Below, one piece after another: positions 4,417-39,012 of a DNA stretch of 64,000 nucleotides. The DNA is taken from assembly GCA_021521415.1 (NCBI GenBank), contig JAIQDT010002053.1, forward strand, positions 62,001 through 126,000. The letters run 5' to 3'. Source of the DNA: Bidens hawaiensis. Lineage: Eukaryota > Streptophyta > Magnoliopsida > Asterales > Asteraceae. A model generated the notes under the pieces. It was not told the origin of the DNA. It did not search any database and saw nothing but the letters and a program-made list of their open reading frames with translations. Positions within the stretch are counted from its first letter, which is position 1, and every line of letters starts with the position of its first letter. Made by a program: the position numbers and the translations under genes.

Positions 4417-4512
4417 CTTATATATGGGCGGAGTTATACAGGCGAAGTTACAGATAACTTCGCCTAGGCGAAGTTAACCACAACTTCGCCTGTGCAACAA
4501 CATCGCCTATAT
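4417..4512 (-). promoter_or_regulatory. Putative internal promoter of element A 3' ORF
   Basis: Minus strand: CTTCGCC/GGCGAAG repeats at 4431-4510 (including CTTCGCCTAGGCGAAG), then CCATATATAAG at 4417-4427 as a TATA box, then the 3' ORF start at 4289. The repeats are those of this element's own LTR and leader. Promoter function is inferred from layout and from the parallel blocks in elements B and C. Confidence 0.55.
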
Positions 4513-5892
4513 ATTTACAAAATCAAACCTTATAATTTTAACAATTTTCCAATTAAGTTATAAAACTTTCCTAGAAGAAATAAATGACGTGATCAATTCT
4601 AAGTAACCAGTTAAAAATCATAAAACTATATAAGTACAAAAACTTAAAAAAATTTAAAGTATAAGGGATCAAATTTCAGTCTTGCTAGGGACTGCTACGT
4701 TGTAGAAAAGATCCGAACAGGAATCATACTAACTACGTGACTGTCACATAGATCCGTGTTTAGCTGTATTATGACATATAGAGACAGGTTGTAAGCAGGT
4801 AATATACTTAAGATGGTTTTCATCGTTTCTGTGATACGAGTTAGGTTCAATTAATCCTTAAAATTTAAGTGGGCAACAACTCAGAAATATTGATGCCTCC
4901 TATCTATCCTCAAAGCGTATTTGGCTTTCCCCAAGTCACCCCGAATTGACTTCGACCCATAGTGTCTGATTAAGTTGTAAATATTCTTGATCTGCTTCCC
5001 GTTCTTCTCTCTTACTCAAAGATTGTGAAGTCTTGATATTATCATCACTAATATGTTACAATAACTTCAAATATTTTTTTTTATTTTTTTTTTATTTTTT
5101 TTTTTATTTTTATTTATTTTTTTTTATGAACAACCTAGACTTCAAAGTAGAAATTAACTGCAAGTCCCGAATCTGGATCACTGCAGTATCTTGAGACGCT
5201 ATCTTCACGGGAATCAGAACACACATGGGCTAGTGTATGACTGGGTAATCGCTTTTCTGCCTATCATTCGGAAAGATATATATGAAGGCACGCAAAACTC
5301 TTAAGGAGTTTCCACGAAAAATCAAGTAAAATTCGTTTGTATCACATTTACTTTTACGTACCATAAAAAGTTACCATGACATACAATGGCTGTCCTAAAG
5401 CCTTTTAAGCCTAATAACATCACTAGTTAAGCACACAGAATTAGTATATCTATCATTTTCCAAGGTTGGATCAATTTTCCGTTTAACATAGCTAACGAAC
5501 TTCTTACGAAGTAACAGACTTGAAAAGTAATTTCATTTCCCTTTTCTCTTTCAAAATTTAAACAAAAATCGCCCCGACCAAAACAAAGTCTTCAGGTAAA
5601 CGGCTATCCCGAAGATCCAAAGGATCAGCTGGATCGACCACATACTAGTATGTGTCCTTCTAACTAAGTATGATCGACTAATTTTAAGCGAAAGAAAGAA
5701 AAACTCATCATAAACCGCCCCGGTCACTATCAGTAATCTGGTTAATGGCTATCCTCAAAATCTACAAGTAGAGAATGAGGACCAAAACATATCCGAAGAC
5801 AAGTCCATCAAACTAATGTAACCGACATAATTTTAAGCGATTAGTGACTTCTTTTTTTTTTTTTTTATTTCGAACAACAAAAGAAAGGCATG
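4513..5892 (-). other. Element A conserved non-coding block between pol and 3' ORF
   Basis: No ORF, but long stretches match the same interval of element B (36400-37640) and more weakly C (26030-27130). Shared pieces include two related units with GGATAGCC followed by TTAACC or TTTACC, ending near GGGGCG. A stem-loop is predicted at 5590-5614 (minus strand CTTCGGG...CCTGAAG), and a perfect palindrome CACATACTAGTATGTG lies at 5639-5654. T-rich runs at 5073-5125 and 5850-5868 on the plus strand are A-runs in the element's sense; the first matches the place of an A-run in B. Confidence 0.7.
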
Positions 5893-6328
5893 GTTACTCG
5901 GGATTGATCATCCCATTCAGTTCAATAAGGTTTTGAAATCTGGATTTGTCAAATGCTTTAGTGTATAAATCAGCGAAATTATCAAGCGTATCCACCTTTT
6001 CAAGAATTATCAGTTTCTTCTCAGCACAATCTCATATGAAATGATGACGTATGTCAATGTGTTTAGTTTTACTATGTTTCACGGGATTGTTAGTTACTGA
6101 GATAGCAGCTGTGTTATCAATGCAAATAGGAGTAAGTAAGAAATTCAGACCATAGTCGCGCAGCTGTTGTTGTATCCAAAGAACCTGAGAGCAGCAGTTG
6201 GATGCAGCCATGTATTCTGCCTCACAGGTTGAGATTCGACTGAAGTCTGCTTCTTGCATTGCCACGACACCAATCTGCCACCAAGAAACTGACATCCTCC
6301 AGTTGTTGACTTCCGACTCTGATTGCAC
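5893..6328 (-). pseudogene. pol: Element A pol C-terminal RNase H piece, frameshifted and stopped
   Basis: Shifted frame relative to the main pol ORF. It carries the end of the copia RNase H domain (CEAEYMAAS, then a DNTAAISVTNNP region and SKTKHIDIRHHF). The frameshift lies near 6225-6240. A TGA at 6032-6034 then interrupts HHFI-DCAEK, and the frame continues to a TAA at about 5893-5895. Two lesions in the last part of pol mean this copy is unlikely to make a full RNase H. Confidence 0.8.
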
Positions 6329-9201
6329 CCTCCATAATCAGAGTCCGTGTAAGCGACCAGCTCCAAGTCACCTCTTCTTGGGTACCACAACCCCAGCTTC
6401 GGCTTGCCCTTGAGATACCGCAGTATCCTCTTTGCACCTTTCAAATGAGATTCTTTTGGATTTGACTGAAAACGTGCATAAAGACAAACAACAAACATTA
6501 TATCAGGCCTAGACACAGTTAAGTACATTAAAGAACCTATTATCGCCCGATATTGAGTTGGGTCCACATCTGCATCACCGTCTACTTCAGCACCCAATTT
6601 GTGATTGACGCAGATTGGAGTATCATATGGAGAACTGTCCTCCATCTTGAAGCACTTGAGCACATCATGAACATACTTCGTTTGATGAATGAACATCCCG
6701 TCCTTCCTCTGATCAACCTGCAATCCTAGAAAGATAGTTAGTTCACCCATAGCACTCATTTCAAACCTTTTCTTCATGACGGCTTCAAACTCCTGACACA
6801 TGGAGACTTTTGATGCAGCAAATATTATGTCATCCACGTAGACTTGAACCAGCAGGATGTCGCTTCCATCTCTTTTGAAGAACAACGTGCTATCAATTTT
6901 CCCTCTTTCAAAACCATTCTCGAGCAAGTAATCCGATAAAGTTGCATACCAGGCACGAGGTGCCTGATGTAATCCATACAACGCCTTGCTCAACCTGTAC
7001 ACGTGATCTGGATAGTCTGGGTCAGGAAAACCCGGTGGTTGCTGAACATACACAACCTCATCAACTATCCCATTCAAAAACGCACTCTTTACATCTAGCT
7101 GAAACACCTTCATCTTTTCATGAGCAGCAAACGCCAAGAACAGTCTTATGGCTTCCAACCTAGCGACAGGAGCAAACACTTCGTTATAATCAATCCCCTC
7201 TTGTTGATTAAAACCTTTCACGACAAGCCTCGCCTTGTTCCTTATAATAATCCCCTTATCATCTCTCTTGCACTTGAACACCCATTTTGTGCCTATCGCA
7301 TGCACATTTTTTGGTTTTTCAACCAAAGTCCAAACTTCCATCTTCTCGAATTGAGCCAACTCTTCTTGCATGGCCTCGACCCACGAGCTGTCCTTTAAAG
7401 CCATTTGATAATTCTTCGGTTCGATCTGGCTTATAAAGCAGGTATACAGGCATTCATTGATTATTCCTGTCTCCTTAATGCTTGCATAAACACAGGTATG
7501 TTCATTCAAGCTATTTCTCATTTGTACACCTGAGGACACATCACCAATCACATTATCCAGAGGGTGATCTTTATGAATTCTCGTGGTCGGAACAGAACCG
7601 ACATGAAAATTATCTTCCAAATTAGAAGAGATCTCATCAATGGTTGTTTCATGCTGAGAGTGAAAAGGATTGATAAATTCTTCTTCAGTTGAGGTAGCAG
7701 GGGTACCGATAGTGTTTGATGAGGAAGGTTGACAATTTTCAATCAGCTGTCTTTGCAATAAATTTTCTTCCTCATCGAGTATCATCTTCGTCGCAGCTCT
7801 TTCTTCTTCTTCAGAAATCTCCAAATCCGGTATGTTAAACGACTTAAAAAGCTTAACATAGTCGAAAAGCTCAGCAGGTCCATTGCTTGGTTTTGGCGGT
7901 TGGTAACTTGTGATGTCAGTGTTACATACCACCTCCACCTTGCAAGTCGAAGTATTGAAGACACGCCTGTTGGGAGTCCCAACAACATAACCGACTAAGA
8001 TTCCTTCATCGGCTACTTCTCCAAATTTCGAATTTGTCTTCAAGATCGAACAAGGAGACCCGAATGGTTCAAGACCACTCAAGTTGGGCTTCCTTCCATG
8101 CATAAGCTCGTAGCAAGTTTTACCAAGTCTCTTAACGGTTAACACCCTATTCAGAACATAGCAGGCTGTAGCAACCGCTTCAGCCCAGAACATCACAGGA
8201 AGCTTCGAATCTGCCAGCATAGTCCTGGCTCCTTCAATTAAAGTTCGGTTCTTCCTTTCAGCCACTCCATTCTGTTGCGGAGTATACGGAGCGCTATATT
8301 GATGTTCAATTCCTTTCTGAAGACAGAAGATCTCCATTTCAAAATTCTTGAACTCTGTCCCATTGTCACTTCTGATGAACTTAACTGTTTTACTCATGAC
8401 GTTCTCAACTTTAGTAATCAAACTCTTCACCATTTGAGCCGTCTCATCTTTCAATTTCAGAAAATATACCCACGAGTATCGCGAGTAGTCATCAGTGATC
8501 ACCAAGCAGTAAGAAGTACCTCCTAGACTTTTGACATTCACGGGACCGAAAAGATCCATGTGAAGCAGTTCTAGAGTACTGGCAATTGAGTTGACCTTCT
8601 TGGTGAGATGGGATTTCTTGTGTTGCTTTCCCTTCTTGCATGCAATACATTTGTCTTCAAAGTTAAAACTTTTCAAGGGAACGCCCATCACAAGCCCATT
8701 TTTGACAATGTGGTTCATCTTCCGAAGATGAATGTGCCCCATTCTCCTGTGCCATAGTTCGGATTCTGATTCGCTTGCTTTCGTCATTAAACATGATTCT
8801 CCCAAGGCCATTTCAGTAGACCTCATATCCATCACATACGTATTTGTATCACGTGGAGCTGTCATCACTATCCACTCTTCTGGTATCTGAAAACCAGGCT
8901 TCAACACGATCGCCTCATTCTTCGTGAAGTGAACAGTATACTCCTTATCACAAATCGGCGACACACTCAGCAGATTGTGCTTCAGCTCTTCCACAAAATT
9001 CACATTCTCAAGTGTCATCTTCCCATTGGACACCGTTCCTTTTCCAGTTATTCTTCCTCCACTTTCACCAGCAAAACTAACTCTCGCTCCATGAACAGGT
9101 TTTAAGTCGTGCAACAAGTATTTGTTGCCCGTCATGTGCCGGGAACAGCCGCTATCTACAATCCAAAGACTGTGGGCAGCCCTGTTCAACTGTTCCTGCA
9201 C
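6145..9201 (-). CDS. pol: Element A Pol: protease, integrase, reverse transcriptase, partial RNase H
   Basis: Copia-order polyprotein. Protease active site [11 protein letters not shown] lies near residue 16. The GAG-pre-integrase [10 protein letters not shown] lies near 150. The integrase core has [15 protein letters not shown] and [10 protein letters not shown], giving the D-D-E triad. The RT has [21 protein letters not shown] and YVDDIIF (YVDD codons at 6829-6840, residue about 788). RNase H starts at YTDSDYGGC but the frame shifts at about 6230, so the last residues are unrelated. No in-frame ATG is needed: the frame opens at a splice-acceptor-like GTGCAG (AG at 9197-9196), suggesting that it is reached by splicing from gag. 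Confidence 0.93.
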
Positions 9202-10376
9202 AATAAAGCAAATGATTAGAATCTAGGGACCCAAGACCAATTGCTCTTGGATCTATACATCCCGTACTTCTGCTTTCCGAAGTTAGCATTTGTATAATTC
9301 CTGTCAGTCCTAGTAGGAAATCTCATTGGAGATTGAGTGTGAGGCCTTCCAAACCTATGCGTATTGAAAGTATTATATCTTACGGTTTGGTGATTAGCAT
9401 TGTAAAACTGAGGTTTGTTTCTTTGAAAACCTGTATTAATTACATTTCGGAACCTTGAAGGGTTTTCATTTTTAACAGTATTAAAATTACCAGTAGACTT
9501 ATGCTCAGTTTTAATAGGCCTCACGCCTCTGAATTTCGGCGTCAGAGGACAATCTGCAACAAGATGTCCTACTTTATTACACCTAAAACAACACCTATAC
9601 TCCATTTTCTTTTCAAATGTTGTTTTGGATGTAGAGGCAGTGTTACCAGCCGTTCGTCTCACATAAGGTGGGACGTACGGGTTGAGTGGAGTACTCTTTT
9701 TAGAAGTTTTATCTTTATCTCCACCAGTGGGTAACCCTACTTTCTCTTTTGTCTTACCCGATTCGGACAACTTATCCGAATCCGATGAGACTGGACTTGT
9801 AACAGAAATATTTACACTTGAAACAGGCGAACTCGTTTCGCCACTACTAACACTCGGTTCTTTACTTGTAACCTTGATAGGAACTGTCTGAGGAACTTCA
9901 AAATCAGCAGATTTCTGTACACTAGGGTTAAAAGTGTAATTGTGGTTATACGGTGGTGGAACCTCATGATAACCAATTCCTCCTCTCTTTGTAGAGGTAC
10001 CTTGATCACTAACAAGGTGATTAAGAATAGCTGAGGAATTTTTGAACTGTTCTAGTTTTCGGTTCAGTTCCACCACTTTCACCTGGTGGTCAGCAATCTG
10101 CTTTTCACGTTCAGCAATCAGTTTAGTCTTTTCTTCTAAAACCTCATAACTAAGATTAATAACTTCAACTTTTTCAGCAAGTTTAGTTTTTAAGCTTTTA
10201 ACATCTTTTTCACATGCTTTAATTTTAACTTTGTAACTGTTTTCTCTTGCTTTTGTGAAGTGATGATCTTCTTTAAGAGTTTTAAATTCAGCATCTAAAC
10301 GAACATACTGATCAGTTATGGTAGCAAGTTGCTCAGACAAATTCTCACATTTAGTACAAAAAGATTTAGAACTTAC
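9196..10376 (-). other. Putative gag-pol intron of element A
   Basis: The donor CGAG/GTAAGTTCT (GT at 10376-10375) is a perfect plant 5' splice site inside the second gag frame. The acceptor TTTATTGTGCAG ends at 9196, preceded by a CTAAT branch-point-like sequence that contains the gag stop codon. Both sites are in phase 0, so removal of 1181 bp would fuse gag codon 128 of that frame to pol. The donor sequence GTAAGTTCTAA is shared with element B at the homologous codon. Confidence 0.65.
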
Positions 10377-10760
10377 CTCGGAGCGTTGATCATCGTTATC
10401 TGCCATGAAAGCTTTTTCCTTACCAGCAGCTTTCTCTTCTCCGGTAGTCTTCTCACGTTCTTCACTCTCTACCTTAGCCATATTTGCCTGTTCACCAGTT
10501 TCATTCAAATGCAGGTTCCAGTTGTATTCACCTGCTTCTCTGGACAGCATGGCATTGATTTCCTTATTATTCCCAGTGTGCTGTGCAGGCCTTCCTTGAC
10601 CACGTTCAACTCTCTCGTTTCTGCAATCTTTGGCAAAGTGCCCGTTTTGTTGACAGTTATAGCACCTCACCTTAGATTTGTCGAACCATGGCCTGCCACC
10701 AACAAACTTTCTCCCCGTCTTTCTCATGAACTTCTTCACTCTCCTCACTATCATGGCCAT
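9216..10760 (-). CDS. gag: Element A Gag C-terminal part: two zinc knuckles and coiled coil, 514 aa
   Basis: Continues the Gag frame after a TAG at 10764-10766; the corresponding codon in element C is TGG, so the stop probably arose from Trp. Nucleocapsid-type knuckle 1, [14 protein letters not shown], is near residues 33-46; knuckle 2, [15 protein letters not shown], is near 390. Between them is a Lys/Glu-rich coiled coil (about 130-255) and a Ser/Thr/Pro-rich stretch; an Asn/Arg/Phe-rich tail follows. Copia Gag usually has one CCHC knuckle; a second downstream of a possible splice donor means that only the unspliced RNA would encode it. Confidence 0.85.
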
Positions 10761-10763
10761 CTG

Positions 10764-11855: not shown

Positions 11856-11879
11856 TCTTCTTGAAGACTAAGAAACCCG

Positions 11880-12240
11880 AAAAATTCTGAAATTGGCGAA
11901 GTTAGAAAAATTTCTTCGAAACAGTACTGTAGGCGAAGTTAAGTATAACTTCGCTTAAGTAATAACTTTGCTGGATCCTTCGTAAATTCGCGTAAATGGG
12001 CGAAGTTGAGAATAACTTCGCTTAGGATAAGCGAACTTAGAAAGTAAGCGAACTTGAAGAGAACTTCGCTGAACGAGGCGAACTTGAGAAGAACTTCGCT
12101 GAGTTAGGCGAAGTTGAGGAGGTAGGCGAAGTTGTGAATAACTTCGCTTCTCCTTATATCTTCGCTGAAACCATACGAATCCTGACGGCAACTTCGCCTG
12201 ATGAACAACAACTTCGCCTGACGAACTTGAACTTTCTGCA
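11880..12240 (-). repeat. Element A leader: cluster of CTTCGC/GCGAAG motifs
   Basis: About 19 copies of ACTTCGC or its complement GCGAAGT/GCGAACT in 360 bp, mostly in inverted pairs, between the primer site and gag. The motif is the same as in this element's LTRs and in front of its 3' ORF. Short frames here are repeat translations. Confidence 0.85.
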
Positions 12241-12405
12241 GATCTGAAAAACGGATTTTAACGACGATTTTGACGGTTTGAAGGCTTAAACACACTGATA
12301 GGAAGCTAGAATGAGCAAACACACCACAAACTCGTCCCGGTAACACCCGAAATGAAACGAATTCTACACCCGCGTGAATATCCCGAACCACACAATCGAG
12401 CAAAT

Positions 12406-12417
12406 GCTCTGATACCA
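12406..12417 (-). other. Element A primer-binding site, Met-tRNA type
   Basis: The minus strand reads TGGTATCAGAGC two bases inside the 5' LTR. Confidence 0.93.
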
Positions 12418-12419
12418 AT

Positions 12420-12895
12420 TGTAGGTTCCCTGGACGGATCACACGAGATATCCCGATATACACAGGTGCGGAATCCCTGTGTAGATCGTTACGGACATAG
12501 AATATAATCACACAAACACACGTACACATGATACGAACAAAACTCACGTTATATTGATAACTCGAACCGAGATGCTTACAGACTCACGTCAATAGACTCA
12601 CACGTAACTGAACTCGATCAACCAAAACGCTAACTGACCAACTGATTAACTGATTAACCGTAAACAGTTAAACTACTTAAATACACGACAACTTCGCCTC
12701 AGGCGAAGTTGTCAATAACTTCGCTCGTTGAACAAATTCGCCTAGGCGAACTTGTCAACAACTTCGCTTAGTTAACAAGTTCGCCTAAGCGAACTTGTCA
12801 ACAACTTCGCTGTTACACAAACAATTACATAAACAATATTACAGACTCGATTACAGACTTTAGACATATGAACTACTGACATCTATGCACCAACA
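12420..12895 (-). repeat. Element A 5' LTR
   Basis: 476 bp, TG...CA, followed by the ATATG duplication at 12896-12900. It carries one extra 43-bp palindrome unit (12769-12811) compared with the 3' LTR. Confidence 0.95.
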
Positions 12896-12900
12896 ATATG

Positions 12901-16908: not shown

Positions 16909-18096
16909 TGTTGAGTCAAGATTTGACATAAAACTGATCAGATGGAAGATTGGAATCTTCTCAACCTCCTCAGAATTCGCTAAGTATGGATCCGATCACA
17001 CCTTAGACCTCCGAGCAAGCTTATACTTAGCCGGGTACGATATTTTGTCTATCGGGCAAGGTTATCTTTGAAAGTCTTCTTTAGTGGACATCCGAGCAAG
17101 GTTTGCAAACTTGTGTATTATCGGGCAAGGTTCACTAGTATATTCATGTCCGGGCAAGGATCACTTTATCAAGCAGTTTTGTTCTTCATAGCCAAGTAAA
17201 GTTCACTTCCGAGTAAGCTTTAGGCTAACCAATCTCAAGAAACCAAGTATTTGAAGATCGGGCAAGGTATTCATTAATAAAGATGGTCCGGGTATGCCTG
17301 GTGTTTAATGAAGTATCACAAGTATCATCGGGTAGGATTTAACTCAAGCAAGGTAAAGTGCCTCCAAGCACACTTTGCTAATTAGCTATTCCAGGCAAGG
17401 AGTTGATAGGACCATTGAAGAACAAGGTTGCTCGTAAGGGTTTGTCGGGCAAAGTCTGATAAAGCCAAGAAGATTGAAGTCTACCCGGTGAATATTTTAC
17501 TTGGTAAAATACTCTTCAAGTAAAGTCTACCCGGAAACTGATCCCGAGCACACTTCTATATTACCAAGTCATAAAGGATTGCAGAGCATACTCGGAAAGA
17601 CAAGATTGATGCAAAGCCTACCCGGAAAACTTGTTTTACACTTAGATTATTTCTGAATATGTAATTTGAATATGTATTATCGGATAGGGTTTCTAGAAGG
17701 AATGACAGCTGTAAAGGAGGTTCCAGGGCTATAAATAGAATAATTTAGGGCAAACCTCAAGAACACAGGCAACGGCACACACAAAAAGGAAGACAGACAC
17801 ATTAATTAAGAAAGAATATTGTGTGTGTGACTGCTGTCCTTCAAGAAACCCTAAATTGATTATCCACTTTGTATGATTGATATTATATGAATGGAAATCT
17901 TTTGAGTTAATCTTGTTTGTGTTGATTACCTTTGAATACTGATTTAGCAACCGTATGTTTGTTATTGATTCCGCCTTTATCAAACGGTAATCTTTCTAAA
18001 TATAGCAACCCGTCATTAACTCTCTTGTCAACACATTTATTTGTGTGAGTTATGGCATGATTTAAGTAAGATGCATCTAAAATCGGGGACCTGACA
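16909..18096 (+). repeat. Element C 5' LTR
   Basis: 1188 bp. U3 (about 16980-17640) holds roughly 25 copies of a degenerate 12-mer of the form CCGGGCAAGGTT / CCGAGCAAGCTT / CCGAGCACACTT in both senses. A TATA box, TATAAATA, is at 17730-17737. Ends GACCTGACA. Confidence 0.95.
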
Positions 18097-25443: not shown

Positions 25444-27325
25444 ATCTGATTAAGGATGTGTGCTTGGTTATATACCTCTATGTGCTAACTGATTACTTTG
25501 TTTAGAGGTTTTACAAATTGAATGTTGTGTGAATATGTTTAAGTGTGATACTGAATATGTTACAGAATATGCTGACTGTTATGTGCTTTGACTGACTGTG
25601 TGTGCAAAGAATGACAAGTGTTTTCATGTTTATCAGTTAATGTGTATTTGTGATGTTAAGATGAGTAGTCATGTTATGAATTACCAGTTAAATGCTTATC
25701 TGACATCACTGGTTATTTGCTTGAATATGTGTTTTATCTGATCTTCTAATGTTATTAAGATAGGATAGACTTTGAATGTTATAACTGTCTACTTGTCCTG
25801 ATAATATCAAGTTTGATTATGATTTGATTATGTGTTACAACTGCTTGTGTCAAAATGAGTCTTATGTCAAAATTAAGTAATAACATGACTTTTCTAATGA
25901 ATTTTGCATAAATACTCTATTTTTGAATCAAAACATGAGCATGTTGTTAATGGTGTTGAGATATGATAAGATTATTCAGTTCAAGCTTTAAAGAAGCATA
26001 AAAGAAGGATTTTTCAATGAAAAGTCGCAGGTAGTTATCTTTGCTGAAAATTATGTCATTTGCCCAGTTGGAAGGACATACACTTATGTATGTTTAGTCC
26101 TGCAATCTGCAAAGATTAAAAGGATAGCCATTAACCAGAAAACTGAAAGCATTTGGGGCAATTATAACTTGTTTTATATTCTTTCACTTAAAACTATGTC
26201 AATAGCTCTGACTTTGAAAGGGCGTATATTCAAAATGTTTGTTTGGTCCTGTTGACCACTAGTGGTCAAATAGAACATCCATTTACCTGACAAGTAAGAG
26301 ACATTGGGGTGTTTGAATATTAAACTGAATATAAATGGGAAATGATAGTACATTGACTACTAAGCCAATCATATGGATTTATTAGGCTAAAAGGACTCTT
26401 AGTACAGTCATTGACAAGTATGGATGCTTTCTCATGATATGTAAAATCTAAGGTGATATAAACATAAAGAAAATGCGAAGATTTATGTGGAGTTACATTG
26501 TTGTCTATGCATGTTCCTAGATAAATCTTTTCAAATGATAGGCAGAAAAGTGATTATCCAGTCATACACAAGCCTGTTGGTCTTTGGTTACCCAAAATGA
26601 AACATCTTTTAAAAGGAATGACAAAGAACTGATGTGAACTACTTTAATTTCAAATATTTAGTCAATCAACAGTTGATATATGTTCACAAATTTTTATTAG
26701 AGAAATACAAACATGAGGGTTAATTACAGAACTACAAGGGTGGAGGCAATCATATAAGTCCTTTAAACATCCTGAATGAAAGGCCTATAAGTCCGACTTG
26801 CGTGGCATGTAAGTCCAACGTTCAACCTCACATATGTTTGTAGATTTGAAAAGAAATATCTTTTAAATTTTTTATAACATGTTCTGTCATTAAAAGTTTT
26901 AACCAAAACCAGGCGGTCAAAGTCAAATTGGGGTGATCTGGAGAAAGCCTAATAAGCCTTGAGGATAGATAAGGAGCATCAGACCACAACATGTGTTATC
27001 CATTAAATTTTCTGCAACTTAATTGAAACTTAATCATATCACTAAAGAAATGAAAATCATGTCAAGTCTAGACCTGCTGTTGACCTGTCTTTGTAGTCAT
27101 AATAATGCTGAGAATGAAGTATTGAGAAAGCTACTTAGTCAATATGATCCAATTCTTGAGATCTTTTCAGTTTACAAACGGAATTTGTTTTGAAAAGAAA
27201 AATAACTGAATTTTGATCTCTAAATGCACCATTTGCTCTTAAACTATGATCTTTAAAGATAAAATTATTCTGACAAATCTAACAAGTTGGTTTAAGTCAA
27301 AAAGTGTTGCATTTTGCCTAAAATA
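25444..27325 (+). other. Element C non-coding block between pol and repeat block
   Basis: No ORF. It contains diverged versions of the block conserved in A and B: GGATAGCCATTAACCAG near 26123, a GGACATACA...TGTATGT stem-loop near 26075-26100, GATAGGCAGAAAAG then CCAGTCATACAC near 26540-26572, and GATAGATAAGGAGCAT near 26964. The first 600 bp are T-rich UTR-like sequence. Confidence 0.6.
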
Positions 27326-27329
27326 GGTT

Positions 27330-28412
27330 GAATATGTATGTTCGGGTAAGGTTTGATGTTATTAAACCTTCCCAAGCACAAACTGTTTGAATATGTATTT
27401 TCGGATAAGGTGTGATGTTCTCAAACCTTTCCGGGTACAAAGCAGTTGAATATGAGTGAATATGTATTTTCGGGTAAGGTTTGATGTTTTTAACCTTTCC
27501 GAGCAAGCTTTGTCATTTTGGACTAAGTTTATGATTTTCGGGTAAGGTTTGATGATTCATAACCTTTCCGGACAAGCTTTGTCATTTTTGACTAAGTTTA
27601 TGATTTTCGAGCATGCTTTGAAATGTTTACACTTTTCGGGTAAGGTACACAATTGTACAAGTTTCCCGAGCAAGCTTGAAGTCTTGAGATGATTATGTGT
27701 TTAATTGCATCTTGTTTATGCTGATTGTTATTTCAAGCAAACTTTGTGAACTCCATGAGTACACCAAGCATGCTTTGTGTGTGAATATCTTTTCTTTGGA
27801 ATTACAAGTGTTTTCGAGCAAACATTGTTTTCCGAACACACTTTATATTTCGGGTACACTTTTGTTCCTCTAATATACTTGGTAATTTTCAAAAGTTGAT
27901 TTTCCGAGCACACTATCTTCTAGAAGTCCTTTCCGGGCACACTTTGTATTATAAGAATATTATTCGGGTATACTTTGTATAAGAAGGTTGTTCAGGCATA
28001 CTGACATTGTGAAGGTTGCTCGAGCACACTATGTTTTTCAAGTATGCTTGATTGAATATGCTTTTATTATGATTGACTGAATATGATTCTTATTTTTGAT
28101 AGGGTTTATGCTAGATTAAGATTTTAATTTAAATTTGAGAAATTTAAATGGGAATCTTAATTGATTCCTAGCAAGAATATTTATTTGATATTTCATACTT
28201 GATTAATTGTCTTGTGATTAAGTTCTCATGAAATCTGGTATTTCGGGTAAGCTTTCTTCATAGTATCTTGACTTTAAATTACATAGCTTAATCAGATAAG
28301 GTTTGTGATTAAAAGGGATCGGGTAAACCTTATAAAACTAAAAGAAAATATTGTCAAGAAAGATTTAATATTGTTCGGGTAAGCTTTGTGTAAGTGAAAA
28401 TGTACCGAGTAG
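27330..28412 (+). repeat. Element C motif cluster upstream of 3' ORF (left part)
   Basis: About 25 copies of degenerate CGGGTAAGGTTT / CCGAGCAAGCTT / CCGAGCACACTT, the same motif as in this element's LTR U3. Element B inserted into the cluster at 28412; one more copy (CCGAGTAAGGTTT) remains at about 42926. With the TATA box at 43052 it forms an LTR-like block before the 3' ORF. Confidence 0.85.
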
Positions 28413-28861
28413 TGTTAGGACATGAAATGTCATGTGTATGTCCCCAGTTCTATCAGGATGGTTCGATATGAAGATAACGATCGTGAAACTAAGTTAACGG
28501 ACTGAAAATGTCAAAAGAAACTGATTCGATCGAATCAGTGACTGATTCGATCGAACCAGGTCTCGTTCGATCGAATGAGAGACTCATTCGATCGAACCAG
28601 TTTTCGATATATAAACGAAACTTAGGAAATTTCACAATAGAGCACACATTCTACACACAGTCACGAACCACCACTCTGCTGAAATACTCTCTGCCCGTTC
28701 TTCACGTGTCGGTCCTTTCCTCCGTCCCTAGGTGTCAAACCGTCTTAGGAATCGTTACCGCGCGTTGTTGATCACCACCGAATCGCCGTGTTAGAGGATT
28801 CCGCACTCTAACACGTTGCCCCGTGAATCGTTGGGAAACCGTGTCCCGCACCGGTCCGACA
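28413..28861 (+). repeat. Element B 5' LTR
   Basis: TGTTAGG...CCGACA. Four TTCGATCGAA palindromes lie between 28523 and 28597, then a TATA box, TATATAAA, at 28608-28615. The 87-residue frame here occurs identically in the other LTR and includes palindromes; I do not treat it as a gene. Confidence 0.97.
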
Positions 28862-28864
28862 AAG

Positions 28865-28877
28865 TGGCATCAGAGCC
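28865..28877 (+). other. Element B primer-binding site, Met-tRNA type with one change
   Basis: TGGCATCAGAGCC, three bases after the LTR; it differs from the usual TGGTATCAGAGC at one base. Confidence 0.85.
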
Positions 28878-29264: not shown

Positions 29265-29700
29265 TTTTCCGATCGAACCAGTCTATTTTTGGAACTCATT
29301 CGATCGAATAGCCCTCCTATTCGATCGAACCAGTTTGAACTTGGACCGAATCAGTTTTTCCCGCCTAGAAATACTCCAAGTTCATTCGATCGAACCAGAT
29401 TCGTTCATTCGATCGAACCAGTCTCCAGTTGATCGAATAAGTCACACATTCGATCCGTCCATTCGATCACTGTCTTATTCGACTGTCAGAACCCGTTCGA
29501 TCAAACCATACACTCAATCGATCGAATCTGTTAACCCATTCGATCGAACCAGTTACACAATCGATCGAATAACTTTCAGAAGATCAGTTCGGTTTTCCAG
29601 AGAGACATTCGATCGAATCAGAACATATTCGATCGAATAAGGCACTCGTCCGATCGAACCAGTCTCATTCGATCAACAGTTCAAAGTTAACCAAAGGATC
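29265..29700 (+). repeat. Element B leader: TTCGATCGAA palindrome cluster
   Basis: Seven exact TTCGATCGAA decamers and about nine near-matches (for example ATCGATCGAA, CCGATCGAA), often followed by CCAGT or TAAG, between the primer site and the gag ATG at 29705. 28878-29264 is T-rich leader with TTCGTGTTCTTCGTGTT-type runs. Frames across the cluster, such as one from 29182, are repeat translations. Confidence 0.88.
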
Positions 29701-29704
29701 AAAA

Positions 29705-32700: not shown

Positions 32701-32785
32701 TGAGGGTAAATGGATTGAATTGTTCATTCGTGATGAAGATGGAAAACCCAAGACCTTAAGGGCTTGGGTTTCCAATGATATTTAA
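29705..32785 (+). CDS. gag: Element B Gag, 1026 aa, two zinc knuckles
   Basis: Full-length Gag, about twice the usual copia size. The capsid-like UBN2-type region is residues 1-230 (PPKLMTLNDFTTWKTRF, TLWNALVDRCEG, FYHLMSELKSYN). Knuckle 1, CYNCGELGHFAKEC, is near residue 395. Then come an acidic segment, a coiled coil (about 600-715) and a Ser/Pro/Lys-rich segment; knuckle 2, CFSCGEVGHIARFC, is near 880. The ATG context is AAAAATGGCT. The TAA at 32783-32785 lies 21 bases before a splice-acceptor-like site that opens pol. A consensus donor at codons 584/585 suggests that a shorter Gag fused to Pol is also made. Confidence 0.93.
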   Translation: MASSSSTNKRIQSILESDSESGSYNKPPKLMTLNDFTTWKTRFQIHITGVNPGLWEAVQTAWVHPTNDDGESLSYFRLSEEQKIAFDAEKKAFSLLSQALSTDLFHQFNQFTTASTLWNALVDRCEGSDSLREIHARELKREFDLFSPESGEDIESLLSRFYHLMSELKSYNVKTTGTEKVRCLAQGLPPSWSTFLTVMRRSHQLETILLSDFIKEIRHEEAELRASSRKPRSTSDKSLYMSKPPLSDSTDHAPMKTAFVSSTSNQSKGTETRSSVPLSTSGNSSTNSGPKSTEKATLNTEGLGTVTVEVAKEHMATLGTIIESYSLMVAGKLGNSHLDSDDYEQLDEDDMERIDIMWALGSAFRRARKWTKKTGQALSINNKSKFGFDKSKVKCYNCGELGHFAKECSKPRREGHQYPFRTTSSSSTPAAAAATVNLERQLVPQNQTAANNVDINNETALAVQGDEGETWNLSINMADVTVVDENSETESVVSSTNEEYTVDEPAAEVHEGEPEVEVVSLEIKEDHEKESNVPQSSPCSTIPAEAAKVEEVKEAEIKVTSPSFLGRAGKLCSAFMADTSSNAKVSSNPSTPKSVNVKCIKCELYEQEIQSLKERIEDLEAYKQAASRSLMELTDALAQNKAWKQKESVFKEKIDGLKRQNKELEICVLNQQDSINFHINKNNVLKKELENLKADFESLNFKLKSYSNSSYLLEHIIPEFRGKKEKGVGYNNVPPPILNQFSSTPGAVPDDESNDYIPEDTNQISKSKGKEVIDPAPESKQNVDATDLGSTTKSGPPPSKSKATTTRSSQKKKFNPKSEKVYVEHSTQFVKEGNVNEKHNFPKHPPRQTPPQNVKSRGYYDNRQNQSYFSPPSQRGRNYCFSCGEVGHIARFCYKYTDPKQYISTPDPRYVKSPPRRRSTIDIQGQERFHTPRSVSPRKPQPTSPHQSPNPSDPSVSTSTSETQSSTSYLKHAEKKTDFWKPKKTNTVDNNVKSENSVNEGKWIELFIRDEDGKPKTLRAWVSNDI

Positions 32786-32806
32786 ACCTTTTGTTTTTGT
32801 GTGCAG
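31457..32806 (+). other. Putative gag-pol intron of element B
   Basis: The donor CCAAG/GTAAGTTCT fits the plant consensus fully; the acceptor TTTTTGTGTGCAG ends at 32806. Length is 1350 bp. Both edges are in phase 0 with gag and pol, so splicing would join gag codon 584 to pol and bypass the gag stop, the coiled coil and the second knuckle. Element A has the same arrangement with donor core GTAAGTTCTAA at the homologous codon. No RNA evidence is available here. Confidence 0.68.
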
Positions 32807-35800
32807 GTTGCTCTAGATGATCCAAGATTCAACATGTGGATCATAGACTCAGGAGCTTCCAGGCACATGACTGGAAACATGAATCTCCTTTCAAGTGTCA
32901 GACAAATAAAAGGAGGTGCAGTTTCCTTTGCAGGAAATCAAGGAGGTTATATCACGGCCCAAGGAATGGTGTCTAATGGGCGAATTTCGTTTGAGAAAGT
33001 AAATTTCATCAAAGAGTTGGAGAACAACCTGTTGTCGATAAGTCAAATCTGCGACAAAGGTTTCAAAGTTATGTTTGACGACCGAGATTGCCACATCTTG
33101 CCTAAGGATTTCAACTTTCCTGAAGACAAGGTTTTAATGTCAGCTGCACGCCAGAGTGATCTTTACATTCTGGATATGGCTAAGGCAGGGTCAACGTCTC
33201 CAACGGCGACATGTTTCGTGTCCAAGGCATCCGAACGTGATACTGTCTTATGGCATAGACGGATGGGACACATAAATGTCAGGAACATGAACAAGCTTGT
33301 GCACCGCAGACTAGTTGAGGGAGTTAATCTGAGAAGTTTTCGTCTCCCTGATTCATGTGTGAAGTGCAAAGCCGGAAAGCAGATAAAAAGGTCCCACAAG
33401 TCTAAGAGTTTCCACTCAATTGATATTCCGTTGGAACTCCTTCATATGGATCTTTTTGGCCCAATAAGCGTCAAAAGTATCTCTGGGCACTCATACTGTC
33501 TAGTGGTTACTGATGAATATTCTAGATTCTCTTGGGTGTTTTTCTTGAAAGTAAAATCAGAAACGTTTGGGTGTATACAACTGCTGGTTACAACTATTGA
33601 GTCTCAATACAATCTGAAGGTTCGAAGAATGCGGTCAGATAACGGTACAGAATTTAAAAATGCGAATGTTGAAAATTTCTGCAAAGAAAAAGGGATCGTT
33701 CAGGAGTTCAGTGCCCCATATGTTCCTCAAATGAACGGGGTTGCTGAAAGGAAAAATCGTACGTTAATCGAGACAGCAAGAACAATGTTAGCCGACTCAG
33801 TGTTACCTGTTACGTTTTGGAGTGAGGCAATTGCCAACGCCTGTTTCACATTAAATCGGGTAGGCATCGTCAAGCGCCACGGCAAGACAAGTTTCGAGCT
33901 TCTTCAACGACGAAGGCCTAACTTAGAGCACCTGGAACCATTCGGGGCTCTTTGCACGTTACTTAAAAGGCAAGTCGATAATAAGTTCGAGGAGAAGATC
34001 ATCAACGGCTATTTTCTGGGTTACAGCATACCTCTCAAAAGGGTCTTCAACAGAACAACAAAATTAGTTGAAGAATGGTACCATGTCGATGTTCAACGCT
34101 ACACAGAACCAGCCAAGGGGACAGGAGAAGACTGGTTGTTTGATTATGACAAACTGTTCAAGTCATTCAATCTGTATGAGATTGCTATTCAAATGATGTA
34201 TGAGGCGCAAAATGCACCTCCTGATGAATCTTTGCAATCTTCAACTCATCCTGGTCCGTCATCATCTTCCTCCACAGAGTCTAGCGATCAAGTTCAAGAA
34301 TCTTCCGAATCTGAATCTGAAGATGAATCTCCAGCAGATGATGTACAATCGGCACCAACTCAGGTTACGTCACAACCTTCATCGTCAAATCAAGAAGTGC
34401 CGAATGCAGATCAGCCTCTAACGTCTACTTCAGAGGCACCACAATCCGCTCCAGTTCCTGAGCCGAACTTAACTAACTTGGAACAAAATGTTGTCGTTTC
34501 TGACAATCCGGTTGTTAGGACTGAACGTGATCATCCACAAGACAACATTATAGGGGACATTCAACAGGGTGTCAAAACTCGTCGACAGCTGAATTTTGGT
34601 CTCTACACAGAAATGATGGAGTCAGGATTAGTTGCTCTTAATGCCCATGAATGCTTCTTAGCACAAGAAGAACCACACAGCACCACCGATGCGCTGAAAG
34701 ATCCCAACTGGGTCACAGCCATGCAAGAGGAATTATTGCAGTTTAAAAGACTTGGTGTGTGGAAGCTGGTGGATCTCCCCAAAGGACAGAAGAAAATTGG
34801 CACTAAGTGGGTACTAAAATGTAAACGTGATGATCGTGGAGTGATTGTTCGCAACAAAGCCCGCCTGGTGGTCCAAGGGTTTAGGCAAATCGAAGGCCTA
34901 GACTACAATGAGGTATATGCTCCGGTTGCTCGTTTGGAGGCAATTCGGATGTTCTTGGCGTATGCATCTTTCAAGAAATTCAAAGTATATCAGATGGACG
35001 TCAAGAGTGCCTTTTTGTACGGTCACATCGAAGAGACCGTATATGTGGCACAACCTCCAGGTTTTGAAGACCCATATCACAAGGACAAAGCTTATCTGCT
35101 CAATAAGGCTTTGTACGGTCTTCACCAAGCCCCGAGAGCTTGGTATAAAGAACTATCCAAACACCTTCTCAACAACGGGTTTCGAAGGGGAACCATTGAC
35201 TGCACGTTATTCACAAAAGAAAAAGAAGGAGATCTAATTATGGTACAAGTGTACGTGGACGACATCATCTTCGGGTCCACGAATAAAACACTTTGTAAGG
35301 AGTTCGAACAGGTGATGAAAGAAAAATTTGAAATGAGCTCCATGGGTGAGATGAAGTTCTTCTTAGGACTTCAAGTTGATCAAAAAGATTCCGGTATCTT
35401 CATTCACCAGACAAAATACGTCAATGACATCTTGAAACGGTTTGAGATGTTGAGTTCTTCTTCACAGAGAACTCCTTTAGAGGTTAATCACGGGATTAAT
35501 CCTGACGAGAAGGGTGAATTGATCAATCCAACTCACTATAGAGGGATCATCGGATCTCTAATGTACCTGACTGCTTCTCGGCCAGACATAATGTTTGCTA
35601 CGTGTCTCTGTGCACGTTACCAGTCAAAGCCGAAGGTCTCCCATCTGATTGCAGTCAAAAGAATTTTGCGTTATCTGAAGGGTACTCCTGATTGGGGTCT
35701 TTGGTATCCTTATGATGATAACTTTGATCTACATGCGTATAGTGATTCGGACTATGGTGGTTGTAAACTCGATTACAAATCAACAACAGCAGGATGTCAG

Positions 35801-36220
35801 TTCTTTGGAAGTCGTTTAGTAACGTGGCAATGCAAAAAGCAGACGTCAGTCTCCACTTCAACAGCTGAGGCGGAATATATTGCGGCTGCCAGTTGCTGTT
35901 CTCAAGTTATTTGGATTCAGCAACAAATGCGTGACTACGGTATTGAATGCTCTACTACTCCCATATATATTGATAATTCTGCTGCAATTTCAATTACCAA
36001 AAATCCGGTTCATTTTAGCAAAACGAAGCACATCGAAATTCGATATCACTTCCTTCGTGACTGCTACGAAAAGAAGTTAATCGATGTGATAAAAATCCCC
36101 ACTCAGGAACAACGCGCTGATCTCTTCACTAAAGCATTTGATAAACCACGGTTTTTATATTTACTAGAGATCAACGGCGTTAAACGTATATCAGATGATG
36201 TTCCTGAAGATATCATTTAA
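32801..36220 (+). CDS. pol: Element B Pol: protease, integrase, reverse transcriptase, RNase H
   Basis: Uninterrupted 1139-codon copia Pol. Protease IIDSGASRHMTG with Asp at residue 16. GAG-pre-integrase [15 protein letters not shown]. Integrase triad D217 (HMDLFGP), D280 (RSDNGTEF), E316 (NGVAERKN), with D-to-E spacing of 35. A Ser/Pro/Gln-rich linker follows the integrase. RT has [21 protein letters not shown] and YVDDIIF (YVDD at about 818-821). RNase H has YSDSDYGGC, STAEAEYIAA and DNSAAISITKNP. There is no suitable ATG: the frame opens at the acceptor GTGCAG, so translation as a spliced Gag-Pol fusion is the best guess. Confidence 0.96.
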   Translation: MQVALDDPRFNMWIIDSGASRHMTGNMNLLSSVRQIKGGAVSFAGNQGGYITAQGMVSNGRISFEKVNFIKELENNLLSISQICDKGFKVMFDDRDCHILPKDFNFPEDKVLMSAARQSDLYILDMAKAGSTSPTATCFVSKASERDTVLWHRRMGHINVRNMNKLVHRRLVEGVNLRSFRLPDSCVKCKAGKQIKRSHKSKSFHSIDIPLELLHMDLFGPISVKSISGHSYCLVVTDEYSRFSWVFFLKVKSETFGCIQLLVTTIESQYNLKVRRMRSDNGTEFKNANVENFCKEKGIVQEFSAPYVPQMNGVAERKNRTLIETARTMLADSVLPVTFWSEAIANACFTLNRVGIVKRHGKTSFELLQRRRPNLEHLEPFGALCTLLKRQVDNKFEEKIINGYFLGYSIPLKRVFNRTTKLVEEWYHVDVQRYTEPAKGTGEDWLFDYDKLFKSFNLYEIAIQMMYEAQNAPPDESLQSSTHPGPSSSSSTESSDQVQESSESESEDESPADDVQSAPTQVTSQPSSSNQEVPNADQPLTSTSEAPQSAPVPEPNLTNLEQNVVVSDNPVVRTERDHPQDNIIGDIQQGVKTRRQLNFGLYTEMMESGLVALNAHECFLAQEEPHSTTDALKDPNWVTAMQEELLQFKRLGVWKLVDLPKGQKKIGTKWVLKCKRDDRGVIVRNKARLVVQGFRQIEGLDYNEVYAPVARLEAIRMFLAYASFKKFKVYQMDVKSAFLYGHIEETVYVAQPPGFEDPYHKDKAYLLNKALYGLHQAPRAWYKELSKHLLNNGFRRGTIDCTLFTKEKEGDLIMVQVYVDDIIFGSTNKTLCKEFEQVMKEKFEMSSMGEMKFFLGLQVDQKDSGIFIHQTKYVNDILKRFEMLSSSSQRTPLEVNHGINPDEKGELINPTHYRGIIGSLMYLTASRPDIMFATCLCARYQSKPKVSHLIAVKRILRYLKGTPDWGLWYPYDDNFDLHAYSDSDYGGCKLDYKSTTAGCQFFGSRLVTWQCKKQTSVSTSTAEAEYIAAASCCSQVIWIQQQMRDYGIECSTTPIYIDNSAAISITKNPVHFSKTKHIEIRYHFLRDCYEKKLIDVIKIPTQEQRADLFTKAFDKPRFLYLLEINGVKRISDDVPEDII

Positions 36221-36293
36221 ATTGTTTTCATTTTTCTTTTCTTAAAAATTTAAAAAAAAAAAAAAAATCCAAAAAGATTTTGTTTTTTATAAA

Positions 36294-36310
36294 TTCTAGG
36301 GGGAGAAAAG
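36294..36310 (+). other. Extra polypurine-tract-like sequence after pol
   Basis: CTAGGGGGAGAAAAGG shortly after the pol stop. It is close to the polypurine tract of element C (CTAGGGGGAGAT). Sireviruses are known for multiple polypurine tracts; this one lies 6 kb before the 3' LTR. Confidence 0.5.
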
Positions 36311-36399
36311 GTTCAAGAAAAACCAAAAACAATATAAAATACAAAAACCCAAAAACATTAAAAAAAATTTTCAAAATTTTGAGAAGTTGATCTTGTTAC

Positions 36400-37180
36400 A
36401 AGAAAGGTGATAGTACACAGACGCTATCATACTGAGACATCAAAAAGATTTGCTATTTCTGTACAGCTTATTTTCATTTTTCTTATATTAAATTTTTATA
36501 CATCACTATCGCTTAAAATTATGTCGGTTACCTCAGTTTGATGGACACATTTTCGGATGTGTTTTGGTCCTTATTTCTACTAGTAGATTATGAGGATAGC
36601 CATTAACCAGATGACTGAAAGTGATCGGGGCGGGTTTTGATGGTTTTTATTCTTTCGCTGAAAAATAGTCGGTTATACTTAGTTAGAAGGACACATACTC
36701 GTATGTGGTCGGTCCAGTTGATCCATTGGATCTTCAGGATAGCCGTTTACCTGAAGACTTTGACTTGATCGGGGCGAAATAATTTAAACGTTTTTTAAAG
36801 ACATTCATTTATATTCAGAAAATGAGAAATTGATCCAACCTTGGAAAATGATAGATACACTGATTCTGTGTGCTTAACTAGTGAAGTTATTAGGCTTAAA
36901 AGGCTTTAGAACAGTCATTGTGTGTCATGGTAGCTTTTTATGGTGCGTAAAAGTAGATGTGATACAAACTAAATCTACTCGATTTTACGTGGAAACTCCT
37001 TAAGAGTTTTGTTTGTCTTCATATATATCTTTCCGAATGATAGGCAGAAAAGCGATTACCCAGTCATACACGAGCCCATAAGTGTTCTGATTCCCGTAAA
37101 GATAGTGCATGAAGAAACTGCAGTGATCCAGATTCGGGACTTGCAATTGTTTTACTACTCTGAAGTCTATGTAACATTCA

Positions 37181-37233
<53 letters not shown>

Positions 37234-37639
37234 TCTTTATGAGTTATTGAAACATTCTAGAGTTAATAATGTCAAGACTTCTCAATTATGGAGTAAGAAA
37301 GAAAACGGGAAGCAGATGAAGACACTTACAACCTTAATCAGACACTATGGGTCAAGGTCAATTCGAGGTGACTTGGGGAAAGCCAAATACGCCTTGAGAA
37401 TAGATAGGAGGCATCATAATCTCTGAGTTGTTATTCACTTAAATTTTGAGACATAATTGAACCTAACTCGTATCACAGAAACGATGAAAACCATTTTAAG
37501 TTATTTTCATGCTCATAACCTGTTTCTTTATGTCATAATACAGCTCAACACGGATCTATGTGACAGTCACTTAATTAGTATGAATCCTGTTCGGATCTTT
37601 CTCACAAAAAGAATATTCATTATGTCTTGTTCAACTTCG

Positions 37640-37640
<1 letters not shown>
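36400..37640 (+). other. Element B conserved non-coding block with repeated stem-loops
   Basis: Two related units, 36509-36634 and 36655-36776, share the order TCGCT, GTCGGTTA, GGACACAT stem-loop, GGTCC, GGATAGCC then TTAACC/TTTACC, GATCGGGGCG. Predicted stems: ACACAT/ATGTGT at 36545-36562, CACATAC/GTATGTG at 36692-36707, CTTCAGG/CCTGAAG at 36732-36756. Later pieces (37045-37075, 37320-37420, 37540-37610) also match element A. No ORF. Conservation across families without coding suggests an RNA-level role. Confidence 0.72.
37182..37228 (+). repeat. Poly-A tract 1 in element B
   Basis: 47 uninterrupted A. Element A has an A-rich run at the homologous place (minus strand of 5073-5125). Nearby lysine-rich frames are artefacts of this run. 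Confidence 0.95.

Positions 37641-37645
<5 letters not shown>

Positions 37646-37698
<53 letters not shown>
37646..37698 (+). repeat. Poly-A tract 2 in element B
   Basis: 53 uninterrupted A, followed at 37771-37791 by a T run. Lengths of such runs are error-prone in assemblies. Confidence 0.95.
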
Positions 37699-37703
<5 letters not shown>

Positions 37704-37900
37704 CAGTAGATAGTCATATACGTCTGTATGATTTCTTATTATAGATCCTTCTCAACCAAAAATAATGTGTTTTAAATTTTTTTTTTTTTTTTTGTACAGA
37801 TGTTTATTTCAGTTTGAATATTATAAAAAGAAACAAGACAAAAATTCAAAAACATTTTTATTCTGAATTAATTTTTCTTTAATTTTATTCTGCTTTAATG

Positions 37901-38078
37901 TCGATGAGAAATCATTGTGACAGGTAGTCTGATCCCTGTCCCTCCCTGTAAATATTTTGATAAAAACCAAAAAAGATTTTATTTCTATTTATTTTTTTTC
38001 TTTCTTTCTCATTTTATCTATTTCTGTTTGTTTGAGAATCGATGAGAAATCATCGTGACAGGTAGTCTGATCCCTGTC
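37901..38078 (+). repeat. Direct repeat in element B, two copies
   Basis: About 40 bp beginning TCGATGAGAAATCAT and containing GACAGGTAGTCTGATCCCTG, at 37901-37940 and 38039-38078, one mismatch seen. It lies between the poly-A tracts and the palindrome block. Function unknown. Confidence 0.85.
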
Positions 38079-38403
38079 TGTTCCTACTAAATGTTTATCC
38101 AGTGTGTAGGAATGAAAGAAAACTTCATGCAGGTTGCTAAATGTTCATCTGTGCAACAGGCTGTGCATGAAAGAAAGAATGAAGTGACAAGAAAACCCAA
38201 AGATGTTTGAGCCTGATATTTTTCCATTTGTTACTAATGTATTATGATCTATATGTTCTGTAGGAACGAAGCTCTCAGGATTGGAAAATGTCTACGAAAA
38301 CTAACCAAGTGTCAAAAGTTTATGTTTTCGTGCAGGTTCAAAGGCATCACGATCGATGGACGGGAAATAAGAAATTTAAAAATTTATTTTTCAAATGTTT
38401 TCC

Positions 38404-39012
38404 CTCATTCGATCGAATAGGTTGCTATTCGAACGAATAACTCGATCGAATGAACAAATTCGATCGAATCAGTGGTTGAGGAATGTAAACAGTTGCGAAG
38501 AGACTCATTCGACCGAATAAGAATCTCATTCGATCGAATGGTCCAAACGAACAAGTCCGTTCGATCGAATAAGTCCAAAAATAGTATAAATATTCAAACT
38601 CATTCGATCGATCAGTTTTATTCGAAATATTTTACGGATTTTTGCTCTCAAATTGATTTTCCTCAAACCCTCTTTTTGATCCGATCATATTATTCGATTT
38701 TTCACGTAGATCACGAAAATGTAAGTTTTACTTGTTTTTAACCGTGTTTTGATCGAGTTCTTGATCGTTTAAGTTTTCCGGGTTCGGTGTTCTTCGTTTC
38801 TGGGTTTCTGTTTGAATGAGTCGAACCAGTCCATTCGATCGAACGAGTTTCTTATTCGATCGAATGTGACTTATTCGACCACTAGTTCGATCGAATCAGA
38901 AGTCAACGATAAGATCTATCTCATTCGATTGTCTGTGATCGAACCAGATCTCATTCGATCGAATGAATAGCTCAACCGATCGAATGTGTTACTCGTTCGA
39001 TCGAACTAGTCC
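38404..39012 (+). promoter_or_regulatory. Putative internal promoter of element B 3' ORF with TTCGATCGAA cluster
   Basis: Nine exact TTCGATCGAA decamers plus variants in about 600 bp: four before and five after a TATA box, TATAAATA, at 38585-38592. The 5' LTR has the same order of decamers followed by a TATA box. A candidate 5' UTR intron runs from GTAAGT at 38721 to TTTACAG at 39084, five bases before the ORF ATG. Separate transcription of the 3' ORF is inferred from these signals. Confidence 0.6.

Follow-up and report, generated by a model that had tools for sequence, protein, structure and literature searches.

Repeated short motifs in the long terminal repeats and ahead of the 3' gene of Bidens hawaiensis Sireviruses: candidate enhancer boxes of two promoters

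Sireviruses are Ty1/copia retrotransposons that amount to 21% of the maize genome (PMC10760457), and the function of their 'envelope-like' (ENV) gene is described as unproven (PMC3414828). In the account of 13 Sireviruses by Bousios et al. (2010; PMC2829016) 'repeated motifs' (RM boxes) are presented that are palindromic, element-dependent, and clustered in the long terminal repeat (LTR) upstream of the TATA box; according to its main text, all nine ENV-bearing elements among the 13 also have copies in the linker, 77 of 79 lying before ENV, and six further ENV-bearing Sireviruses are without RM boxes. The same authors proposed an internal promoter with no conclusive identification, and a search among open-licence papers brought up no later identification of one. 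Here we analyse a 64,000-nt stretch of Bidens hawaiensis DNA (contig JAIQDT010002053.1, positions 62,001 to 126,000; hereafter the window, part of a 3.47-Gb assembly to which all genome-wide counts refer) that holds three elements, A, B, and C, each with an open reading frame between pol and the 3' LTR (the 3' ORF) and each with clusters of a short motif in the LTR and ahead of that frame.

Judging from their arrangement, we consider it rather probable that the clusters are shared enhancer boxes of two co-regulated promoters within one Sirevirus. The boxes would be enhancer-type protein-binding sites that serve the LTR U3 promoter, from which the genomic gag-pol RNA is made, and boxes of the same kind would serve an internal promoter directly ahead of the 3' ORF, with transcription firing from an internal TATA box. 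Both promoters of a family would share its one dyad motif, which A, B, and a fourth family, D, carry again in the leader downstream of the start, and one sequence-specific factor would switch both transcripts together.

Motif clusters in three elements and a fourth family

Elements A, B, and C can be assigned to the Sireviruses from their sequence. The Sirevirus polypurine tract (PPT) octamer AGGGGGAG begins 10 bp ahead of the 3' LTR in all three, with extra sense octamers between the start of the 3' ORF and the 3' LTR (4 in A, 2 in B, 4 in C); the Pfam matches (RVT_2, rve, and Retrotran_gag_2 in A; gag in B) are of copia type; and the reverse transcriptase (RT) of B and C is, respectively, 65% and 62% identical to that of A. 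Element A lies on the minus strand and C on the plus strand, and B, also on the plus strand, is nested inside C, its insertion at 28413 splitting the cluster that precedes the 3' ORF of C.

In element A, CTTCGCC/GGCGAAG occurs at 1233/1243 and 12692/12702 in the two LTRs (3' LTR, 961..1395, with the PPT octamer adjoining at 1396-1403; 5' LTR, 12420..12895, with its motif cluster at about 12690-12811 and TATTTAA at about 12677-12683), at 11895-12212 in the gag leader, and at 4441-4484 ahead of the 3' ORF (cluster 4427..4507). The leader cluster of GGCGAAGTT, at 11895..12228, has seven exact copies, or 13 with up to one mismatch. Element B has 24 exact copies of TTCGATCGAA in the window: four in each LTR (28413..28862 and 42446..42895, 100% identical across 450 bp; in the 5' LTR the copies stand at 28525-28596 and are followed by TATATAAA), seven in the leader (29268..29677; 12 with up to one mismatch), and nine ahead of the 3' ORF (38408..38594, with a second cluster at 38834..39005). 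An exact search thus bore out the A and B coordinates and the B counts of 4, 7, and 9 given in an earlier note on this DNA. The motif of C is degenerate and only weakly symmetric, and here the note's claim of copies in both the LTR and the pre-3'-ORF block stands if mismatches are admitted: the exact pattern CGGGYAAGSTTT has five copies, all at 27343-28376 ahead of the 3' ORF (cluster 27328..28412), and none in the LTR, whereas CGGGTAAGGTTT with at most two mismatches occurs eight times in the LTR, ten times in the linker, and not at all in the leader, gag-pol, or the 3' ORF. The 5' LTR of C (16909..18096) holds the degenerate CGGGYAAGSTTT cluster and CTATAAATAG at 17730; its 3' LTR (48020..49209, PPT octamer at 48010) is 96% identical to it.

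Each LTR was compared with the other blocks by shared 8-mers, scored against 60 dinucleotide shuffles. Sharing between an LTR and its own linker is raised in all three elements (z = 4.6 in A, 11.2 in B, 6.3 in C), as had been expected of a motif common to the LTR and the pre-3'-ORF block; between LTR and leader, z is 22.9 in A, 18.5 in B, and 1.0 in C. The 3' ORF is at background (-0.3, -0.2, and 1.4 in A, B, and C), as is gag-pol in A (-0.8) and B (-1.0). Two unexplained outliers, the C LTR with C gag-pol (z 3.7) and the B LTR with C gag-pol (z 4.8), blur an otherwise clean picture in which the remaining cross-element values do not exceed 2.5. Neither gag-pol nor the 3' ORF of any of the three elements holds an exact motif copy; the stricter expectation, that the LTR motif recurs before the 3' ORF of its element and nowhere else, gives way to the leader clusters of A, B, and D. 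A motif-free repeat score agrees: apart from the C leader (3.5), the LTR, leader, and pre-3'-ORF blocks of all three elements, together with the LTR of D, score z = 8-67, against -0.7 to 3.6 in six control blocks (five long direct repeats of other elements and one arbitrary stretch) and -0.3 to 3.3 in eight coding or linker pieces. One direct repeat pair that served as control, 53109-54872 and 62239-64000, is 99% identical, 9.13 kb apart, and without box clusters. Genome-wide, TTCGATCGAANCAG occurs 18,684 times versus 39 for the reversed pattern, pairs 21 bp apart 9,412 times versus 0, and the A palindrome 8,134 times versus 0.

The fourth family, D, adjoins the window and is found elsewhere (L017, L022, L049, L050; L numbers denote our loci), and its sequence appears to repeat the pattern of LTR, leader, and pre-3'-ORF clusters with a fourth motif, TAACGAAYYAG. 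The clusters stand before TATATATA in the presumed 3' LTR (L052; C2053 50903-51053), downstream of a primer-binding-site-like sequence in the leader (C2053 56455-56932), and ahead of the 3' ORF in L049, L050, L022, and L017. No LTR pair of D was found; its LTR is inferred from the position past the 3' ORF, a purine tract, and a TGTTAG start in two copies, and in L052, where the PPT octamer was not found, the purine tract GAGGGGGTGTC lies ahead of the presumed LTR. A candidate fifth family, E (L047), has a GCGAAGCGAA cluster in the leader of its 3' ORF and none ahead of the first TATA box, in a locus that did not extend to the LTR. The idea of a recognition-site-like motif kept at corresponding positions while its sequence differs has held, with D repeating it; the motifs indeed differ between families, yet they are not wholly unrelated, since B and D share the half-site CGAAYYAG and A has CGAAGTTG. 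Fast evolution or replacement of the site may lie behind these differences; no replacement event was caught, and motif type followed 3'-ORF type in the relatives examined.

As with RM boxes, high-copy palindromes precede both the TATA box in the LTR and the ENV-like ORF in A, B, and D; C has its degenerate, weakly symmetric motif at these places. The recurrence ahead of the 3' ORF, which the earlier note took to be new, is already in the main text of Bousios et al. (PMC2829016). Unlike the motifs given there, 12 of 13 of which (all but ACAATCGATTGT of Tnd-1) are built on a CGG-CCG core, the A (GGCGAAGTT), B (TTCGATCGAA), and D motifs have CGAA-type half-sites and no such core, and on this ground we would class them as RM-like boxes of a different sequence type. 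That account calls the motifs Sirevirus-specific, whereas motif B occurs here in Ty3/gypsy elements too, and in the sections consulted neither clusters in the gag leader nor an internal TATA box nor Ty3/gypsy use of the motifs is mentioned. What these elements appear to add is thus a promoter-like block ahead of the 3' ORF, gag-leader clusters (A, B, D), the sharing of motif B with Ty3/gypsy, and evidence bearing on DNA versus RNA.

The block ahead of the 3' ORF as a candidate promoter

The pre-3'-ORF block often looks like the LTR promoter: a cluster is followed by a TATA box, a 5' untranslated region (UTR), and an ATG. Counting TATAWA or TATTTAA as TATA-like (the latter included after inspecting the A LTR), such a box lies 6-37 bp past the cluster in all seven LTR blocks and at most 45 bp past a box in nine of 14 pre-3'-ORF blocks, as compared to 0-9% for motif-free positions. 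In A, TATATAAGG comes immediately past the cluster (from 4424 downwards) and ahead of the 3' ORF (1659..4289, 876 aa). In B, TATAAATA at 38585 begins 15 bp past the last preceding box, a spacing found in all three B-type blocks (B, L012, L013); by exact half-sites the spacing is 25 bp in both L049 and L050. The remainder of the C block (42896..43438, past the B insertion) has its last box at about 42920, TATATAAG at 43052, a CT-rich tract, and a 5' UTR before the ATG at 43439, and a CT-rich tract is likewise present in the C-like L026. Between the internal TATA-like box and the ATG there is a second cluster in B, D, and the A-like L014, which in B and D falls, by eye, inside an apparent 5' UTR intron (possibly about 38719-39085 in B); in B and D, gag and the 3' ORF are thus laid out in parallel, as boxes, TATA box, box-rich leader, and ATG. 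Such a promoter-like block supports the internal promoter proposed, without conclusive identification, by Bousios et al. An extra gene between pol and the 3' LTR also occurs in the Ty3/gypsy elements Grande (gene23) and Retand, where, as described in PMC7264820 and PMC11963269, the Grande accessory gene has its own promoter and Retand TRP28 is predicted to bind DNA; those accessory genes are antisense, whereas the 3' ORF here is sense.

The form of the boxes points to a site in DNA. We compared 108 B sites from ten blocks: 66 were perfect, 36 differed in one half, and six in both halves, and none was compensated. The centres of the B boxes in the window are spaced 20-21, 31, 41-43, and 51-52 bp, and none of 2000 jittered sets was as periodic. 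This phasing of about 10 bp fits proteins sitting on one face of the helix and, together with the uncompensated half-sites, favours a protein on duplex DNA over an RNA hairpin.

Several observations weigh against shared enhancer boxes. With TATAWA alone, the box is found within 45 bp in six of seven LTR and seven of 14 pre-3'-ORF blocks. The pre-3'-ORF blocks that fail have their TATA-like box at 57 bp (L050; 25 by exact half-sites), 80 bp (L026), 92 bp (L018), and 253 bp (L022), and in L047, which also fails, the cluster sits past the main TATA box; in C, L017, and L020 (and in L049 for TATTTAA) the TATA box precedes the end of the cluster. Element C is without a gag-leader cluster (8-mer z 1.0; no motif copies with at most two mismatches), so that the same control positions in three families, as formerly proposed, are occupied in A, B, and C at the LTR and the pre-3'-ORF block and in A and B at the leader. 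In A and D the half-sites lack helical phasing, 208 to 825 of 2000 jittered sets being equally good, and growth of 21-bp tandem units may mimic part of the phasing in B. Nor are the CpGs of the boxes clearly spared in LTR pairs, where numbers are small (changes in C, 6 of 21 in boxes vs 2 of 9 outside; in A, 0 of 6 vs 2 of 21). Helical phasing as a general rule was rejected, being seen in B only.

Motif B outside Sireviruses, and the RNA unit behind pol

Arrays of TTCGATCGAA, mostly with a 20-bp period, occur in direct repeats about 8.2 kb apart at L009/L010, L015, and L016. The polyproteins of L009 and L015 are Ty3/gypsy by Pfam (RVT_1, Ty3_capsid), L016 has matching open frames, and tblastn aligned none of these elements with the A or B 3' ORF. 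The core common to the gypsy and Sirevirus B arrays is ATTCGATCGAAT, and the flanks partly differ, one side reading TGTGT in gypsy and YCAG in Sirevirus B. Past the gypsy arrays, a strict TATA box comes no closer than 105 bp (L010). Element specificity of motif B, as first supposed, is therefore rejected. In maize, the Sirevirus palindrome is reported also as the commonest motif in structured Helitron regions (PMC10760457).

Other relatives vary in their 3' half. L012 (1461-10000) is 98.5% identical to B in pol (nt), about 78% in the 3' ORF (aa), and about 75% in the LTR (nt), with more TTCGATCGGA variants ahead of the 3' ORF; it looks like a recombinant or an element with a fast-changing 3' half. 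Two small elements with B boxes, L012 258-1345 and L014 481-3104, have identical or near-identical terminal repeats (467 and 531 bp) around short inner parts and are likely non-autonomous derivatives. L044 340-1300, an A-type LTR and leader, has 24 exact AACTTCGCC/GGCGAAGTT half-sites and TATATATA 29 bp past the LTR cluster.

A structured RNA unit of about 125 nt is found in two tandem copies just downstream of pol in A (window 5568-5841, minus strand), B (36508-36778, plus), C (26040-26314, plus), and D as well as in relatives (L012, L013, L014, L027, L049, L050). In the structure, predicted from eight sequences and scored on the same, 92.7% of cells pair and 25 of 68 pairs are doubly changed, against 15.3 in shuffles and 1-6 in slid versions; four of the five measures lie above every one of 500 shuffles, whereas 51 shuffles reach the fifth (further pair types). 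In a pool of 14 units, 15 of 24 pairs show double changes. When the window and 27 of 52 loci were searched with an RNA covariance model, eight elements gave two copies apiece, as did L027, which is outside the model and is probably a C-type element because it adjoins the C-like 3' ORF of L026; none were found in two other copia-pol stretches (L019, L023-L024). The window, with A, B, and C, gave no Rfam match, and a brief literature search, which is not proof of absence, yielded no description of this unit. As guesses, it might be an export, packaging, or 3'-end signal. The noncoding linker between pol and the internal promoter (A 4700-5847 vs B 36503-37607) is 83.6% (1,150 nt) up to 88% identical, as against 66-71% for pol, which may reflect constraint on the RNA unit, past exchange between families, or both. 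The B linker has pure A tracts of 47 and 53 bases (37182-37228 and 37646-37698), and A a broken one at 5074-5125 (T on the plus strand). A 36-bp tandem repeat of 5.3 copies (107-296) adjoins element A.

The 3' ORF and the candidate binders of the boxes

The 3' ORF proteins of families A to D have an N-terminal domain in common, and in B (first open frame 39090..40667) the sole Pfam match is PF20167, Transposase_32 (E 5.6e-12), a 'putative plant transposon protein', followed by coiled-coil-like stretches (by eye). No homologs of the B protein were found among 7,994 protein-database candidates scored. With PF20167 as probe, 19 of the 20 matches fetched (L029-L046, L048; L048 being mostly N) failed to align by tblastn with the 3' ORF of A, B, or C, and the family seems to merge two or more widely divergent groups of plant transposon proteins.

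Of the candidate binders, a host transcription factor appears slightly favoured, because Ty3/gypsy elements without a detected 3' ORF use motif B; their use of it favours a host factor or else parasitism on B. We hold it possible but unlikely that the factor is self-encoded, the 3' ORF product acting like VANC, as an anti-silencing protein or an activator that binds its family's dyads in the LTR, in the leader, and at the promoter of its own gene. The analogy is with the VANDAL transposons of Arabidopsis, where, as described (PMC5735166; PMC10398659), a short motif that differs between families is amplified in non-coding regions upstream of or in the introns of the element's own genes, and an unrelated repeat can also carry it; VANC21 binds such a clustered motif (PMC5735166). 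Unlike here, the binder is known there, and the main text of PMC5735166 does not describe the motifs as palindromes. The N-terminal domain of the 3' ORF diverges more between families (25-38% identity; A-B about 30%, B-D 38%) than does RT (58-71% across at least 67 columns), and the coiled-coil-like stretches that follow it in A and B (by eye) would suit dimers. Motif type also tracks 3'-ORF type in the relatives showing both (A with L014; B with L012 and L013; C with L026 and L018; D in L017, L022, L049, and L050), in a non-random sample where L012-L014 were chosen for carrying motif B. However, 3'-ORF and RT relationships show no discordance, and co-inheritance alone predicts the same concordance, which thus does not discriminate for a self-encoded binder; the motif-B Ty3/gypsy elements without a match to the A or B 3' ORF likewise speak against one, as does Pfam, which gives only PF20167 in B and nothing for A, and the predicted fold, with a pLDDT (predicted local distance difference test) of 37, is too uncertain to show a DNA-binding domain. 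A bolder form, in which each family would run a private circuit (its fast-evolving 3' ORF protein acting as cognate dyad binder on the LTR, leader, and internal promoter, by positive feedback or anti-silencing) and the B-dyad Ty3/gypsy elements would parasitise the B circuit in trans, we consider quite improbable.

The palindromes could instead act in the transcript, as hairpins that fold or are diced into small interfering RNA. An excess of small RNAs is reported over the LTR palindrome clusters of maize Sireviruses (Bousios 2016, as cited in PMC10760457), and the leader and pre-3'-ORF copies should be transcribed, those in U3 at the RNA 3' end; yet not one of the 42 altered B sites is compensated, the B core leaves no room for a loop unless the flanks pair, and the U3 clusters stand upstream of the TATA box like promoter elements, so that we judge an RNA role very unlikely. 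We give hardly any credence to functionless growth of short tandem repeats, spread between LTR, leader, and linker by template switching. Tandem arrays with units of 20-43 bp do occur in several blocks and, with 20-bp units, in the gypsy LTRs, but four families hold unlike motifs at corresponding positions (near a TATA box in every LTR block), gag-pol and the 3' ORF hold no exact copy in A, B, or C, the core is kept while the flanks between boxes vary, and the six control blocks have no such clusters.

One dyad in the LTRs of both Ty1/copia and Ty3/gypsy elements points to a common factor exploited by unrelated elements. If indeed the same boxes drive the genomic RNA and, from a separate promoter, the 3' gene of a Sirevirus, that gene would be better viewed as part of the regulation of the element than as an envelope.

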